NCBI GenBank assembly: GCA_002719815.1
Contig: PBET01000008.1
Location: 1-37,733 of the forward strand
Direction: 5' to 3'
From: Methanobacteriota archaeon
Lineage (GTDB): Archaea; Thermoplasmatota; Poseidoniia; Poseidoniales; Poseidoniaceae
Length of the DNA: 37,733 bases
Part shown: piece after piece, positions 2,002 to 8,088 of the stretch
How positions within the stretch are numbered: position 1 is the first letter of the stretch
Layout of the letters: each line of letters starts with the position of its first letter
Program-made: the position numbers and the translations under genes
Notes under the pieces: generated by a model
Databases searched by the model: none
The model's input: the letters and a program-made list of their open reading frames with translations, nothing else
Told to the model about the DNA's origin: nothing

Positions 2002-3141
2002 ATGCCAAAGATTAGCCCCGCATTTTCTCATATTGGGCGTGGGTTCGCCGCATATCTTGCTCCGCCATCCCCAGATGTTATCCGGTTCACAGTCGGCCAA
2101 CCGGACTTTGATACGCCTGAGGCTGTCGTTCAGTCCGCTGTCGATGCTTTGCATCGTGGAGAGACAGCCTATACGCGATCACAAGGAAGTGTATCACTCT
2201 GCGAAGCGGTATCGACCCATCTTGAAACACTCAACATCCCTTCGAATCCAGACGATGTCGTCGTCACACCAGGTTGTAAGCAAGCATTGCTCTACGCATT
2301 GATGACCACGATTACGCCTGGTGACGAAGTGCTTCTCCTCGCTCCAGCATGGCCTTCGTACGATGGGATGATCCGTATTTTTGGAGGCGTTCCTGTTCAC
2401 GTTCCGGTTTCGAGACCATCGTACCATCCCGACTTTGAAGCACTGGAAGCGAGCATCACTGAACGAACAAAGGCGATTATGCTCAATTCTCCAAACAACC
2501 CAACAGGAGCTGTTTACACGCCCGAAGAGATTGAAAAAATCGCTGAATTTGCTGGACGACATGATCTATGGATTGTTGATGATATGATCTATTCGACACT
2601 TGTTTGGACCGACCATCCATACACCTCTCCCATCAATTATGCGGGTGGCGAAAACAGAACCATCACCATTGGCGGTTGGTCAAAGGGGTGGGCAATGACA
2701 GGCTGGCGCATGGGATGGATTACTGGGCCATCTGAATTCATGGAGGCTGTCAAGACCTGCCAAACCTCAGCAGCAACACACATTCCAACATTCCTCATGC
2801 CTGCTGGCGAAGTTGCTTTGGAATTGGTTGAAGAAACACAAGCGATGGCTGAGTCTTTTGCAAATAGAAGAACCATCATGCATGCCGGAATCAATGGTTT
2901 ACCAGGTGTTCGGGCGCCGGAACCAGAAGGAGCATTTTACATTCTAGCTGATATTGCTGGTACGGGAATGACAGACATTGAATTTGCAGACCGAGCATTG
3001 AGTGAAGCGCGAGTTCAGGTTATTCCAGGCTCCTTGATGGAAGGAGGCGATGGGTTGATTCGTCTTTCCTATGCAACTTCGCTGGAAAATATCCATGAAG
3101 GTATCAAGCGATTGAACGGTTGGCTTTCTGGAATTATGTGA
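2002..3141 (+). CDS. PLP-dependent class I/II aminotransferase (AspC-like)
   Basis: This 379-residue protein is a fold-type I aminotransferase that moves an amino group between an amino acid and a 2-oxo acid. The family marks are all present: NNPTG at 165-169, D193 and Y197 for the cofactor ring, K228 in SKGWAMTGWRMGW as the Schiff-base lysine, and R354 in IRLSYATS for the substrate carboxylate. Length is normal for the aspartate/aromatic aminotransferase group; the exact amino acid is not readable. The start is secure: GGGGTGAT lies 5 nt before the ATG. The gene follows tRNA-Cys by 79 nt, and its stop overlaps the end of the convergent PQQ-type dehydrogenase by 8 nt. Confidence 0.93.
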   Translation: MPKISPAFSHIGRGFAAYLAPPSPDVIRFTVGQPDFDTPEAVVQSAVDALHRGETAYTRSQGSVSLCEAVSTHLETLNIPSNPDDVVVTPGCKQALLYALMTTITPGDEVLLLAPAWPSYDGMIRIFGGVPVHVPVSRPSYHPDFEALEASITERTKAIMLNSPNNPTGAVYTPEEIEKIAEFAGRHDLWIVDDMIYSTLVWTDHPYTSPINYAGGENRTITIGGWSKGWAMTGWRMGWITGPSEFMEAVKTCQTSAATHIPTFLMPAGEVALELVEETQAMAESFANRRTIMHAGINGLPGVRAPEPEGAFYILADIAGTGMTDIEFADRALSEARVQVIPGSLMEGGDGLIRLSYATSLENIHEGIKRLNGWLSGIM

Positions 3142-4180
3142 GAGTTGCCGTAATTTTGTACAACTTACCGTTCGATCCGAAGACTGCAAAATAGAGATCC
3201 CCATTGGGATGAAACGCTATGGGCAATGGCGTACCAAGATCCTCTGCGAACACGGATGTTGTCCCAATGACCTCCCCGTTGTTGGCATTAAGATCAATCT
3301 GAACGATCTCGTGCCCACGGGGAATGATGGAGTTCCATGATCCATAGACAGTTGCGTATACTGTCGTGTTGCCCCCAGGTAATGGTGAGGTTTCTGGGCG
3401 CAATGCCACGCCATTCATTGATGAGTGAGGCGTCCATGTTGCAATAGGTGCAATGCTTCCTTTCGGCCTTGGATTCGAAGGATTATCGTTTGGCCAGCCG
3501 TAATCGCCACCTTCGACCAATAAATTGAGTTCTTCATCAGGATGGTCCCCCTCCCAATCTCGGCCGTTGTCAGTGAAAACATAGCCGATACTCGGGACCC
3601 ACACGCCATCGAAAGAATTTCTCACACCGCTTGCGAGCACACCGTGCTCCCCCGTCGATCCGTTAACCCAAAGCAACGCAGCATTCCGCTGGTCGTCTTC
3701 ATCACAGATATTGCACGTTGAACCACTGTGCCAGACAAGCGTTCCATTCGGAAGAATGTTGACGGCATTTGTTTGGTGATTTCCAGTAGGAACGCCGGAA
3801 ATAAGTTCGGTTCGATTCTGCATTTGTTCGAGTTGCCCATTGTGCGAATAACGACTCAGTGTTCCAGCTTCGCTGACAAACAGGTTTGTATCCGTGACCG
3901 CTATATCATGAGGATGGTCCAGGTCTTCAACCAATACCGTTCGACGGTACTCTAAGTCAAGCGTGTAAATTTGCCCACCATCACGGTCGCAAACGATGAG
4001 TGTGTCAGCATCAAACCATTCGAGGCATGTTGGGCCACCAAGATTTTTTGCAACGGCTTCGATTTCATATCCGTCCGGTACTTCTGGAGAATTGAAAGAC
4101 GTATAAGGATAAATTTGGCGAGCTAGAAGAAGAAATACCAGAAGAAACACGATTGGGTGGGCATGTCGAAAAATACTCAT
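3134..4180 (-). CDS. Exported PQQ-type glucose/sorbosone dehydrogenase-like beta-propeller
   Basis: The 348-residue protein begins with an uncleaved or cleaved hydrophobic segment (residues 9-20) and continues as a six-bladed propeller of the soluble glucose dehydrogenase/L-sorbosone dehydrogenase family. Typical marks are GNHQT (H135, the likely catalytic base), SGSTCNIC with C156 and C159, GVRNS (R187), DNGRDW (204-209) and ELNLLVEGGDYGWP (217-230). In characterised members these oxidise sugars using PQQ outside the cytoplasm; whether this cell has PQQ is not shown here. A GGTGAT ribosome site precedes the ATG by 5 nt. It is the last gene of a three-gene operon, 15 nt after the HmuY-like gene, and its end overlaps the aminotransferase gene by 8 nt. 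Confidence 0.85.
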   Translation of the reverse strand: MSIFRHAHPIVFLLVFLLLARQIYPYTSFNSPEVPDGYEIEAVAKNLGGPTCLEWFDADTLIVCDRDGGQIYTLDLEYRRTVLVEDLDHPHDIAVTDTNLFVSEAGTLSRYSHNGQLEQMQNRTELISGVPTGNHQTNAVNILPNGTLVWHSGSTCNICDEDDQRNAALLWVNGSTGEHGVLASGVRNSFDGVWVPSIGYVFTDNGRDWEGDHPDEELNLLVEGGDYGWPNDNPSNPRPKGSIAPIATWTPHSSMNGVALRPETSPLPGGNTTVYATVYGSWNSIIPRGHEIVQIDLNANNGEVIGTTSVFAEDLGTPLPIAFHPNGDLYFAVFGSNGKLYKITATLT

Positions 4181-4195
4181 AACATCACCAAGTTT

Positions 4196-5101
4196 TCAGT
4201 TCTTATATTCAATTTCCACTGCCACCATCTCATAGGATATCGAGAATGCAATGGTGCAATCATCGCCACAGAGATTCACATCTTGTTCACGTAAGATGAT
4301 GTTCTGCGTTGCATTCCAGTACGCTGAATTTTCCGAAGACTCAATCAGACACGGCGAGGGTATCACCAGGGTTGGGTCTTGCAATGCAGGATGATCTTGT
4401 GGCGTAAGTGCTGATGTGAGTACCGATATATGTCGACTCTCGTCATCTTCATTGTAGTAGCTTACGAATTGCATCTTGTACATTGTTTCATTTTGATGGA
4501 GGATATACGTCCCTTCATTCGGTATAACTCGATGTGCTGAAAAGTCATATGTGTACCAATCTAAGCGGTCTTCTGTAAGGTTGGACAACTCAGATTCATT
4601 GAAGGATGTAACCTCTTGGAAAGATTCTGCAACGTACGCCCATTGTACACTCTCGCTCAGATAGACATCGTTTTTGGATGCCCGGAGGGTATAGGATGTC
4701 TCGTTGCCCTCTCGTTGCAGTGGTACAGAAAAATAGGCAAATGCCTCCTCAGAGGTTGCATCGATGGTGGTGGAGAACGTTACACCATCTGATGACAACC
4801 GTGAGTTCACTTTTGCATTCGATGCCCCATCAACAGACTGACTCCCAAAGGAGCATGTGTATGACTGCTCGTTAATTTCAATCTCGATGAGGGTTGAAGC
4901 CCAATCAAGATCTTCTGCCCCATCTTGGAATGAAAGTGTAGCAAGCACGTCATTTGAGCCGTTTGATGTTGAAGTCTGTTCGATGACGACGACATTGTCC
5001 GTTCCAAGTGGTGAATCGTATGATACCACGAGGTAGGTCCAGGCGCCAGCAATGATAGTGGCCGCCAAAGTGATGGCCGCCAACCAATGCTTGTAGTTCA
5101 A
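4196..5101 (-). CDS. Membrane-anchored exported protein with HmuY-like segment
   Basis: The 301-residue product has one N-terminal hydrophobic helix (about 6-26) and an extracellular, beta-rich body with possible N-glycosylation sites. Residues 181-217 (WYTYDFSAHRVIP, then YILHQNETMYKMQFVSYYN) closely resemble the core of bacterial HmuY-family proteins, in which a short Trp/Tyr-rich strand, a His and a 'YYKIQFxxYYN' strand occur in that order. Porphyromonas HmuY binds haem through two histidines; here H190 and H202 lie in the region, but ligation is not shown. Four Cys (83, 251, 278, 282) may form disulfides. The start is TTG at 5101, the only suitable one, with GTGAT just before it. It is the middle gene of the operon, 12 nt after the cupredoxin gene. 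The HmuY assignment rests on pattern memory only. Confidence 0.6.
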   Translation of the reverse strand: MNYKHWLAAITLAATIIAGAWTYLVVSYDSPLGTDNVVVIEQTSTSNGSNDVLATLSFQDGAEDLDWASTLIEIEINEQSYTCSFGSQSVDGASNAKVNSRLSSDGVTFSTTIDATSEEAFAYFSVPLQREGNETSYTLRASKNDVYLSESVQWAYVAESFQEVTSFNESELSNLTEDRLDWYTYDFSAHRVIPNEGTYILHQNETMYKMQFVSYYNEDDESRHISVLTSALTPQDHPALQDPTLVIPSPCLIESSENSAYWNATQNIILREQDVNLCGDDCTIAFSISYEMVAVEIEYKN

Positions 5102-5113
5102 CGTATCACGTTA

Positions 5114-6724
5114 TCAGAGGCTTCGACGGCGGCCCATAAAGAGGACTGCGCCAAGCATAGCGAGAACCATTGTTGAAGCAATGAAACCTGGTGCATCCTC
5201 GGTCTCTTTCTTGTCCGAAGTTGAGTCAACACCACCATCGCCAACGACGATTTCCCCATGCATCTTCATTGAAACGTGTGGCTCACACGCATAGTAGAAG
5301 GTCTGATTTTCAGTGAACGTGTGATGGAAAGCGACTGTGGTCGCAGGATCGCCAGATGTCACACCACCAGTTACATAGGTGCTCGATTGGAAGCCATCCA
5401 CTTGCTTGACATTGTGTGCCATTCCAGCATCAGTCCATGACCAGCATACGGTTTGACCTGGCTCGATGTTGACAACGGATGGTGTGAATCCATAACCATC
5501 GGTTGTGAGGCCAATCGTTGCAACACAGTCTACGCCTTCAAACGGATCTGGAAGAGGAGGAGTGAGTACCTTATCGATAACATGGATGATGCCGTTCGAT
5601 GCGGTTACATCCGCGATGGTAACGTTTGCAGCATCAGCACCAACAGTCACAGCACCGTCCGATACGGTAATGATGAGTTCATCGGTGTTCAGGGTTGTCA
5701 CCGTGTTTGCTCCGTCCGCAAGGTCTGTCGAGAGTGTAGCACCACCAACAACGTGGTAGAGGAGGATGTTGCTTAGTGCTGCGATTTCTTCTTCAGAATC
5801 AAAAGAGTCCAAGTCAATTCCGGCATCTGCAAAAGCCTGATCGGTTGGGGCGAAGACGGTGAAAGGACCTTCTGCTTGGAGGGCAGTAACCAGATCTGCT
5901 GCAACCAATGCGGCGACCAGTGTGTCGTGGATGCCTGTTTGTTGTGCGATTGTCGGGATGTCGTTAGGCCCTTCTTCCATGGCGATCATGTATGCGTCAA
6001 TCTCTGCGATGAATTGCTCGAGTTCATTGATATCGAGCTCGCCTGAGTCGTCAGCATCGTTGTTCGCAAAGATTTCAGCAAAGTCATCGAGTACGGACTG
6101 GGGAAAAGCGCCTTCTTCGTCATCGTTCATGAAAGCATTGAACTCATCAAGGCTCATCGTGCCGTTTTCGTCCGAATCTGTCATGGACAGGAGTTCTTCT
6201 GGAGTTGGGACATCGTCTTCATCATCGTCGTCTGAGAGTGATGGTGGAATCAAGACCTGATCGATGACGTGAATAACGCCGTTCGATGCAGCTACATCTG
6301 CTGTTGTAACGGTTGCGCCTTGAATTTTGACTGTATCGGATGTTACCGAGAAAGTTGCTTCCTCGCCGTTGACCATTTCAACAGTGAGGCCATCAATTAC
6401 ATCAGCAGAAGCAACGTTGCCAGAGTAAACGTGGTAGAGAAGTATGTTGGCGAGGGTTTGATTTTCTTCGGGTGTATCATAATCTGAAAGATCGATGCCA
6501 GCGTCGCTGAAGGCTTGATCTGTTGGGGCAAAGACTGTGAATGGTCCATCTCCTTCGAGTGTTGTAACAAGGTCTGCATGAACTAGGGCTTGTACAAGTG
6601 CGTCATGTACGCCTGTTGCTGCTGCGTTGGTCGGGATATCTTCTGATGCATCAGCCGATACTGAGTACGGCATTGCGGCAATTAAAAGGCAGGCTACGAA
6701 AGTATACACGAGTGATTTGCGCAT
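5114..6724 (-). CDS. Surface protein: FAS1, EF-hand pair, FAS1, cupredoxin, PGF-type tail
   Basis: This 536-residue exported protein has a signal peptide (1-24), a fasciclin domain (about 27-162), an acidic linker, two EF-hand loops (DSDENGTMSLDE at 183-194 and NDADDSGELDINE at 222-234), a second fasciclin domain (about 256-391) and a plastocyanin-like domain (398-495). Type 1 copper ligands are H437, C480, H483 and M488, in the C-x2-H-x4-M order. The C-terminus has PGF (512-514), a hydrophobic helix and RRR, as in archaeosortase PGF-CTERM tails, suggesting processing and lipid anchoring. FAS1 domains usually mediate adhesion; cupredoxins carry electrons. The frame opens 71 codons earlier, but the ATG at 6724 fits the signal peptide and a TATA box 24-29 nt upstream, implying a leaderless mRNA. 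It heads a three-gene operon. Confidence 0.93.
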   Translation of the reverse strand: MRKSLVYTFVACLLIAAMPYSVSADASEDIPTNAAATGVHDALVQALVHADLVTTLEGDGPFTVFAPTDQAFSDAGIDLSDYDTPEENQTLANILLYHVYSGNVASADVIDGLTVEMVNGEEATFSVTSDTVKIQGATVTTADVAASNGVIHVIDQVLIPPSLSDDDDEDDVPTPEELLSMTDSDENGTMSLDEFNAFMNDDEEGAFPQSVLDDFAEIFANNDADDSGELDINELEQFIAEIDAYMIAMEEGPNDIPTIAQQTGIHDTLVAALVAADLVTALQAEGPFTVFAPTDQAFADAGIDLDSFDSEEEIAALSNILLYHVVGGATLSTDLADGANTVTTLNTDELIITVSDGAVTVGADAANVTIADVTASNGIIHVIDKVLTPPLPDPFEGVDCVATIGLTTDGYGFTPSVVNIEPGQTVCWSWTDAGMAHNVKQVDGFQSSTYVTGGVTSGDPATTVAFHHTFTENQTFYYACEPHVSMKMHGEIVVGDGGVDSTSDKKETEDAPGFIASTMVLAMLGAVLFMGRRRSL

Positions 6725-6747
6725 GTGGCTACGCACTTCCGCTACCT

Positions 6748-6753
6748 TATAAC
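6748..6753 (-). promoter_or_regulatory. TATA box for the exported operon
   Basis: The minus strand reads GTTATAAGG with TTATAA at 24-29 nt before the ATG at 6724. The spacing predicts transcription starting at or next to the start codon, and no ribosome-binding site is present, so the message is probably leaderless. It lies between the fasciclin gene and the enolase stop codon. Confidence 0.6.
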
Positions 6754-6779
6754 CCGCTGTATCAGTTCGTAAAAAAATG

Positions 6780-8030
6780 TTAGAAAGGTGAGCGGTAATC
6801 TTCCACATCTTCCGAAATTCGGAGTAATTGGTTGTATTTTGACACTCTATCGGAACGAGCCGGTGCTCCTGTCTTGATTTGTCCAGCTCGTGTTCCAACA
6901 GCAAGATCTGCAATGGTCGTATCTTCGGTTTCCCCACTACGGTGTGAAACGACGTTTCTGTATCCGTTCGATGTTGCTAATTCCATGGCTTCGAGTGTTT
7001 CAGTAACCGTTCCAACCTGGTTCACTTTCACGAGCATTGCATTTGCTGCACCAATTTCGATGCCTTGGGCGAGGCGTTCGGATTGAGTAACAAAGAGATC
7101 ATCACCAACAATCTGGACACGGTGTCCTTCTTGTTTTGTGAGTGTTGTCCAGCCAGCCCAATCGTTTTCACCCAAGCCGTCTTCAATGGAAAGAATTGGA
7201 TATGCATCCAACCATTCACCGTACATATCGACCATTTGATCAGATGAAAGAACCCTGCCATCCATGTGATAGCCATCTGATTTCTCAAATTCCGTGGAGG
7301 CAACATCAAGGGCGATTCCAACATCATCAATGGAGTAGCCAGCGCCTTCAATCGCGCGTACCATGTACTTCAGACCGTCCTCATTTGCTTTCAGATTTGG
7401 AGCGAATCCCCCTTCATCACCAACACCTCCAAGCAATCCGTCGGTTTTGAGCTCGCTCTTGAGTTGGTGGTAAATCTCAACACCTGCTCGAAGACCCTCT
7501 CCAAACGTGTCGAAGCCGTGAGGCATAACCATGAATTCCTGAACGTCAACGTTGGAGGCTGCGTGTGCACCCCCGTTGAGAATGTTCAACATTGGAACAG
7601 GCATTTGGCCTCCAGCAACACCGCCGATGTACTTCCACAGAGGTAACTCGTGTGATGCTGCACCTGCATGAAGGCAAGCAAGCGATGCGCCGAGCATCGC
7701 ATTCGCACCAAGTTTGGACTTGTTTGGCGTACCATCGAGTTCAATCATCGCCTCATCGATGTGGCGTTGTTCATCAACTGGCATCCCAACCAAGAGTTCT
7801 GAAATCGATTGTCGAACATGATCAACTGCTGCATCAACACCTTTGCCGAGCCATTTGGTTTTGTCGCCATCTCGCATTTCCAACGCCTCATGTTGACCCG
7901 TTGAGGCTCCAGACGGAACCATCGCTCGCCCAGATAGGCGGCCATCGACGTAGCAATCAACCTCAATCGTAGGATTTCCTCGGCTGTCCAGTACCATTCG
8001 CGCATCAAGGCCAGAGATGTAGTCCGACAT
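6780..8030 (-). CDS. eno: Enolase (phosphopyruvate hydratase)
   Basis: Enolase converts 2-phosphoglycerate to phosphoenolpyruvate in glycolysis and gluconeogenesis in the cytoplasm. The 416-residue product has all key features: the N-terminal [11 protein letters not shown] (15-25), the mobile loop [13 protein letters not shown] (38-50), the acid [10 protein letters not shown] (205-214), magnesium ligands D242, E283 and D310, the catalytic lysine K335 ([10 protein letters not shown]), SHRSGETED (362-370) and the late lysine K386. The frame opens 12 codons earlier, but the ATG at 8030 is chosen because GGAAGTGAT lies 7 nt before it and because [11 protein letters not shown] fits family N-termini. 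It is divergent from an Lrp-type regulator, and the shared 180-nt region holds repeated boxes. Confidence 0.97.
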
Positions 8031-8088
8031 GGCTATCATCACTTCCAAGCGAAGACGCTCTTTCAACTCAGCGGACTGCTTCCGTGTA

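Follow-up and report, generated by a model that had tools for sequence, protein, structure and literature searches.

Three adjacent genes encode exported proteins

The contig PBET01000008.1 of a Methanobacteriota archaeon (assembly GCA_002719815.1; Poseidoniales, Poseidoniaceae), which was analysed here from position 1 to 37,733 (37,733 nucleotides, nt; the window), carries a group of three genes on the minus strand whose products all have export or anchor signals in their sequences. Gene 1 (FASCU; 5114..6724, ATG at 6724, stop at 5114) encodes a FAS1/cupredoxin surface protein of 536 amino acids. Gene 2 (G2; 4196..5101, TTG start at 5101, stop at 4196) follows after 12 nt and encodes an HmuY-like protein, and gene 3 (PROP; 3134..4180, ATG at 4180, stop at 3134) lies another 15 nt downstream and encodes a predicted beta-propeller of 348 amino acids. 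This arrangement had been described in an earlier note made from the sequence alone, and both its coordinates and its gaps were borne out by a check of the open reading frames. The TTG start of gene 2 is preceded by the motif GTGAT and gene 3 by GGTGAT (4189-4184); both fit archaeal ribosome sites.

Upstream of gene 1 we found the pattern ATACA-N5-TTATAAG (6746..6762, minus strand) with the TATA box TTATAA at 6752-6747, i. e. 22 nt ahead of the ATG. The promoter had previously been placed at 6748-6753, which is one base off. In all ten relatives of the same genus with a readable gap between the enolase gene and gene 1, ATACA-N5-TTATAA is kept while the flanking bases vary; one relative of another genus deviates from the pattern. 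Since the pattern is kept while the surrounding bases change, and given the distance of the TATA box from the ATG, we take the promoter to be probably genuine, and the mRNA is likely to be leaderless or nearly so. A sigma-70 promoter scan was disregarded because this model is inapplicable to archaea. As all three genes point the same way and follow this conserved promoter, they most likely make up a single transcription unit.

Gene 1 encodes an anchored blue copper protein

The product of gene 1 consists of a signal peptide, a FAS1 domain, a pair of EF-hands, a second FAS1 domain, a type-1 copper cupredoxin domain and a PGF-type C-terminal anchor, an architecture already proposed in the earlier note and now confirmed by Pfam and by sequence. 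The two FAS1 domains are matched with an E-value of 2e-60, and the cupredoxin domain (5243..5515, minus strand) is recognized both by Pfam Copper-bind (3e-10) and by a halocyanin-domain profile (2.8e-14). The copper ligands H437, C480, H483 and M488 are invariant in 71 of 71 gene 1 sequences, as is the PGF motif (residues 512-514) ahead of the last helix. The two canonical EF-hand loops (6005..6208, minus strand), which were read from the sequence and score below the Pfam EF-hand threshold, are indeed present in the window, but they are not a feature of the family: the loop pattern occurs in just one of 70 relatives, and hardly any other copy of gene 1 has the pair. The PGF motif, the transmembrane helix and the basic tail are accompanied by an archaeosortase A in the same genome (G000:C1; 97.2 bits vs a 75-bit curated cut-off), which makes anchoring via the PGF route plausible; the TIGR04126 model scores below its own cut-off on gene 1. 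Gene 1 shares the His, Cys, His, Met copper site, the FAS1 domains and the PGF tail with halocyanin/plastocyanin-type cupredoxins and FAS1 surface proteins, but it differs from them in fusing the cupredoxin to FAS1 repeats and an EF-hand pair and in its operon with gene 2 and a propeller gene. The number of FAS1 repeats varies among the relatives. The genome also contains a related, very large tandem FAS1 protein (G000:C5:3629-6958; open frame of about 1300 amino acids), and similar long frames are present in several relatives.

Gene 2 encodes a membrane-anchored HmuY-like protein

Gene 2 codes for an N-terminal membrane anchor (residues 3-27) followed by an extracellular HmuY-like domain. This assignment, first made in the earlier note, is upheld by three kinds of evidence. 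First, the HmuY family of Pfam (PF14064) matches six of 11 family members, with a best E-value among the relatives of 4.8e-4; the protein from the window itself reaches 14.9 bits (E 0.03), under the gathering cut-off of 27 bits. Second, the AlphaFold (AF2) model (mean predicted local distance difference test score [pLDDT] 83.2, predicted template modelling score 0.80) retrieved HmuY-like structures as its top four matches in the PDB when searched with Foldseek, among them 3u22, 6eu8 and 8b6a (probability 1.00, E 6e-4 to 3e-3, with modest template modelling scores of 0.50-0.56 by target length); the predicted fold is thus the all-beta fold of HmuY. Third, the family was compared, profile against profile, with three HmuY proteins from Bacteroidota, of which two carry the HmuY annotation and have a TonB receptor gene nearby. 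The hhalign probability was 90.9 over 105 columns, and the motifs WYxYDxxxHxxxPxxG and SYY are common to both groups. Searches of PDB sequences, whether made with the single gene 2 sequence or with a profile of it, returned chance matches only. In the HmuY core (residues 120-226; 4424..4744, minus strand), W182, Y183, R191, Y215 and Y216 are invariant, H190 is present in 71 of 72 archaeal members, and outside this core C83 and C251 are invariant in all 72. H190 is located in the segment near His166 of HmuY, and one Bacteroidota HmuY has a histidine at the matching place; no second candidate for a haem ligand was seen in gene 2.

The core motif and the predicted fold are shared with the HmuY haemophore family, which includes P. 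gingivalis HmuY, T. forsythia Tfo and B. fragilis BfrB. Gene 2 differs from this family in being archaeal, in its N-terminal helix anchor, in having no adjacent TonB receptor gene, and in a shorter segment between the two conserved motifs; the axial ligands of the HmuY proteins are His134/His166 or Met/Met. The single over-threshold HmuY among the relatives (G017:C56; L116, L211) was excluded, since its contig carries ferrochelatase-like and TonB-receptor-like frames and is a probable Bacteroidota contaminant in an archaeal metagenome-assembled genome (MAG).

The propeller of gene 3 keeps half of a PQQ pocket

Gene 3 encodes an N-terminal membrane helix and a six-blade beta-propeller similar to sGDH and AA12 enzymes. 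The Pfam family GSDH scores 26.1 bits, barely above its 25-bit cut-off. In the AF2 model (pLDDT 85.1) the six-blade sGDH-type propeller is predicted, and Foldseek matched it with a probability of 1.00 to 2ism, 3das, 6i1t, 6jt5 and 1cq1, i. e. to aldose/glucose dehydrogenases and both AA12 structures. Using the catalytic, calcium- and pyrroloquinoline quinone (PQQ)-binding roles of residues described for CcPDH (PMC6881789), we find that H363, W563 and N564 of CcPDH align with H135, W282 and N283 of gene 3, whereas R430, N431, H539 and the calcium loop N448-S449-x-D451 match R187, N188, H252 and N205-G206-x-D208 by motif, the loop being assigned in this way and not by superposition of structures. 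H135 and R187, the two residues that the earlier note had singled out as kept, are invariant in 22 of 22 homologues, and so are N188, H252, W282, N283, N205, G206 and D208. The AA12 catalytic histidine, the Arg-Asn pair and the calcium site are therefore all present. In contrast, the residues that anchor the PQQ carboxylates in CcPDH, R273, R621 and H560, correspond to T51, T317 and Y279 in gene 3; a counterpart of R621 seems from the alignment to be missing in TrAA12 as well. The PQQ pocket suggested for the propeller is thus only half kept, and with the catalytic half in place but the anchoring half replaced, the use of PQQ by gene 3 is doubtful. A profile search for PqqC found none in 60 relatives, with no positive control matched either. 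Matches to a PqqE profile were dismissed as generic radical-SAM hits, as every control matched too and none exceeded the cut-off. Compared with the AA12/sGDH proteins (CcPDH 6jt5, TrAA12 6i1t, sGDH 1cq1, aldose dehydrogenase 3das), gene 3 shares the six-blade propeller, the catalytic His, the Arg-Asn pair, the calcium loop and the GSWN motif, but has Thr, Thr and Tyr/Phe in place of R273, R621 and H560 and is membrane-anchored. In three relatives the propeller gene is broken, twice by an in-frame stop and once into two pieces (L113 2407-2709, L088 8025-9101, L115 914-2256), which may reflect decay or assembly errors.

These observations bear on two explanations of the trio. In one of them, the propeller would be a PQQ-dependent aldose dehydrogenase that obtains its PQQ by scavenging and has the cupredoxin as electron acceptor, with gene 2 providing a structural or binding subunit. 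The predicted sGDH/AA12 fold, the invariant catalytic residues and calcium loop and the intact copper site are all in line with such sugar oxidation, which was one of the options raised in the earlier note; it is weakened by the replacement of the three anchoring residues and by the negative PqqC search with the limit given above, it leaves the presence of gene 2 in iron-importer clusters (see below) unexplained, and we consider it unlikely. In the other, FAS1, EF-hand and propeller would serve as binding modules in surface adhesion or a matrix, and copper and calcium would be structural. The variable number of FAS1 repeats and the PGF anchor with its archaeosortase A would suit this role; however, the invariance of the copper ligands and of the catalytic residues of the propeller argues for chemistry rather than adhesion; we regard this explanation as very unlikely.

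Gene 2 has different partners in related archaea

A scan of 84,980 species genomes for gene 2 yielded 78 loci, or 79 with the window. The titles of all scan loci but one refer to Poseidoniales, Marine Group II or Euryarchaeota lineages; the exception, a MAG titled Pedosphaera, is probably mis-binned. Gene 1 is located directly upstream of gene 2 in 49 of the 79 loci, 22 of which, all from Poseidoniales, are full trios. Gene 2 lies beside a propeller gene in 32 loci (the 22 trios, two cut by a contig edge, and eight in divergent orientation) and in a cluster with a transferrin/PhnC/PhnE-type importer in 15; the remainder have another or a cut context. Thus, where all three genes exist they are neighbours, as the earlier note had expected, but gene 2 is not an obligatory member of the group. 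Within the genus the conserved block comprises enolase (6780..8066, minus strand), gene 1, in some cases gene 2, gene 3, and a convergent aminotransferase gene (2002..3141, plus strand) that marks its end in the neighbourhood comparison. In other genera and in a second family, enolase is directly followed by the propeller gene in the absence of genes 1 and 2, so that this linkage is probably older than the trio. In a maximum-likelihood tree of gene 2, the copies partnered with gene 1 form one clade of 50 rows, with three rows whose context is different or cut, and the trio occurs in two parts of this clade. The copies with a divergent propeller gene fall among those on the transferrin side, a placement that is moderately supported (92/95 and 90/82); the neighbourhood of gene 2 and the propeller has therefore probably arisen more than once.

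In the Thalassarchaeaceae and a few further lineages, gene 2 begins a few nucleotides behind PhnE or overlaps it; in several loci the two overlap or are no more than 6 nt apart. The lipoprotein encoded upstream in these clusters is similar both to transferrins (Pfam 1.8e-26, melanotransferrin 4.2e-38) and to binding proteins of the phosphonate type. One of the 15 importer-cluster loci (L173 425-7536) carries an IsdE/BtuC/HmuV-like importer, a flavodoxin and a HugZ/HutZ-like protein, then gene 2, then PhnC and PhnE. In the genome to which the window belongs, genes for a two-lobed transferrin, PhnC and PhnE lie beside gpsA (L207 7764-11606; G000:C16), the position at which a sister lineage has gene 2. 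Aligned with lactoferrin and read by the residue numbering of that protein, both lobes appear to have retained the iron-binding Asp, Tyr, Tyr and His residues and a His-Thr-Gly sequence for the anion, with Lys in place of the anion-site Arg. The transferrin family PF00405 was detected in 44 of the 60 relatives searched but not in any of the 14 control genomes. The gene 2 homologues of sister lineages thus have members of the transferrin family and parts of PhnCDE-like ATP-binding cassette (ABC) importers as cluster partners; compared with those systems, the archaeal clusters combine a transferrin-like lipoprotein with PhnC/PhnE-type parts, and they lie outside the window. These archaeal lipoproteins have either one lobe of about 360 or two lobes of about 720 amino acids (L207, L154 494-3236, L176 5958-8195), and are possibly a stronger discovery than the trio.

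A possible role in iron or haem capture

Our favoured interpretation is that the trio forms a cell-surface iron- or haem-capture unit with redox help, and we put its probability at about 0.5. It is based on the occurrence of gene 2 of sister archaea inside transferrin-type and haem-type ABC clusters, which lends support to the metal/haem capture that the earlier note had offered as an option, and we prefer it to sugar oxidation. On the outer face of the cell, the membrane-tethered gene 2 protein would bind haem or complexed iron. The archaeosortase-anchored FAS1/cupredoxin protein, and possibly the propeller too, may move electrons at the surface and in this way loosen or reduce the iron, which would then enter via an ABC importer; the simplest candidate is the transferrin-type PhnCE importer that the genome encodes at another locus.

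Several points weigh against iron or haem capture. No iron importer is encoded within the window, and gene 2 is linked to iron through its neighbouring genes (guilt by association), most of these cases lying on the opposite side of its tree. The layout of the operon, the anchors, the copper site, the relationship to HmuY and the predicted fold of the propeller are shown by the data above; what gene 2 binds, which cofactor gene 3 uses, how iron would pass to the transferrin importer and every step of the electron transfer are what we infer. A residue-exact match of H190 to His166 was sought via the Bacteroidota HmuY proteins, and the alignment to 3h8t was too weak for it; moreover, published work shows that the members of the HmuY family do not share conserved haem ligands (PMC6200708). 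For these two reasons we call gene 2 HmuY-like and do not use the label haemophore. Finally, FAS1-cupredoxin and propeller genes are found without gene 2 as well: seven loci of the same genus have genes 1 and 3 separated by a gap of about 110-190 nt, in two of which a hairpin-like sequence was noticed by eye.

The latter loci also speak for an alternative in which gene 2 and the FAS1-cupredoxin gene would be a unit of their own that landed by chance between enolase and a functionally unrelated propeller. The enolase-propeller linkage in other genera and another family fits such hitch-hiking, and so do 25 loci in which the pair of genes 1 and 2 has no adjacent propeller gene. However, gene 2 has the propeller as its neighbour in two orientations and in distinct parts of its tree, and the intergenic gaps are short; we regard mere hitch-hiking as quite improbable.

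Surface seawater is rich in Marine Group II archaea, which to our knowledge have no cultured member; how they acquire iron is therefore a basic question. A literature search found no paper on Marine Group II that deals with fasciclin and none on Poseidoniales that deals with transferrin and iron; most subscription journals were outside its coverage, so that it is weak evidence for novelty. We propose only tentatively that these abundant planktonic archaea have a previously undescribed kind of iron or haem capture, in which an HmuY-like surface protein would act together with the blue-copper FAS1 protein and the quinoprotein-like propeller and deliver iron to an archaeal transferrin-PhnCE ABC importer. 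The HmuY fold is known mainly from Bacteroidota. If gene 2 does bind haem or iron, this fold would operate in archaea as well, alongside copper proteins and transferrin-like importers.

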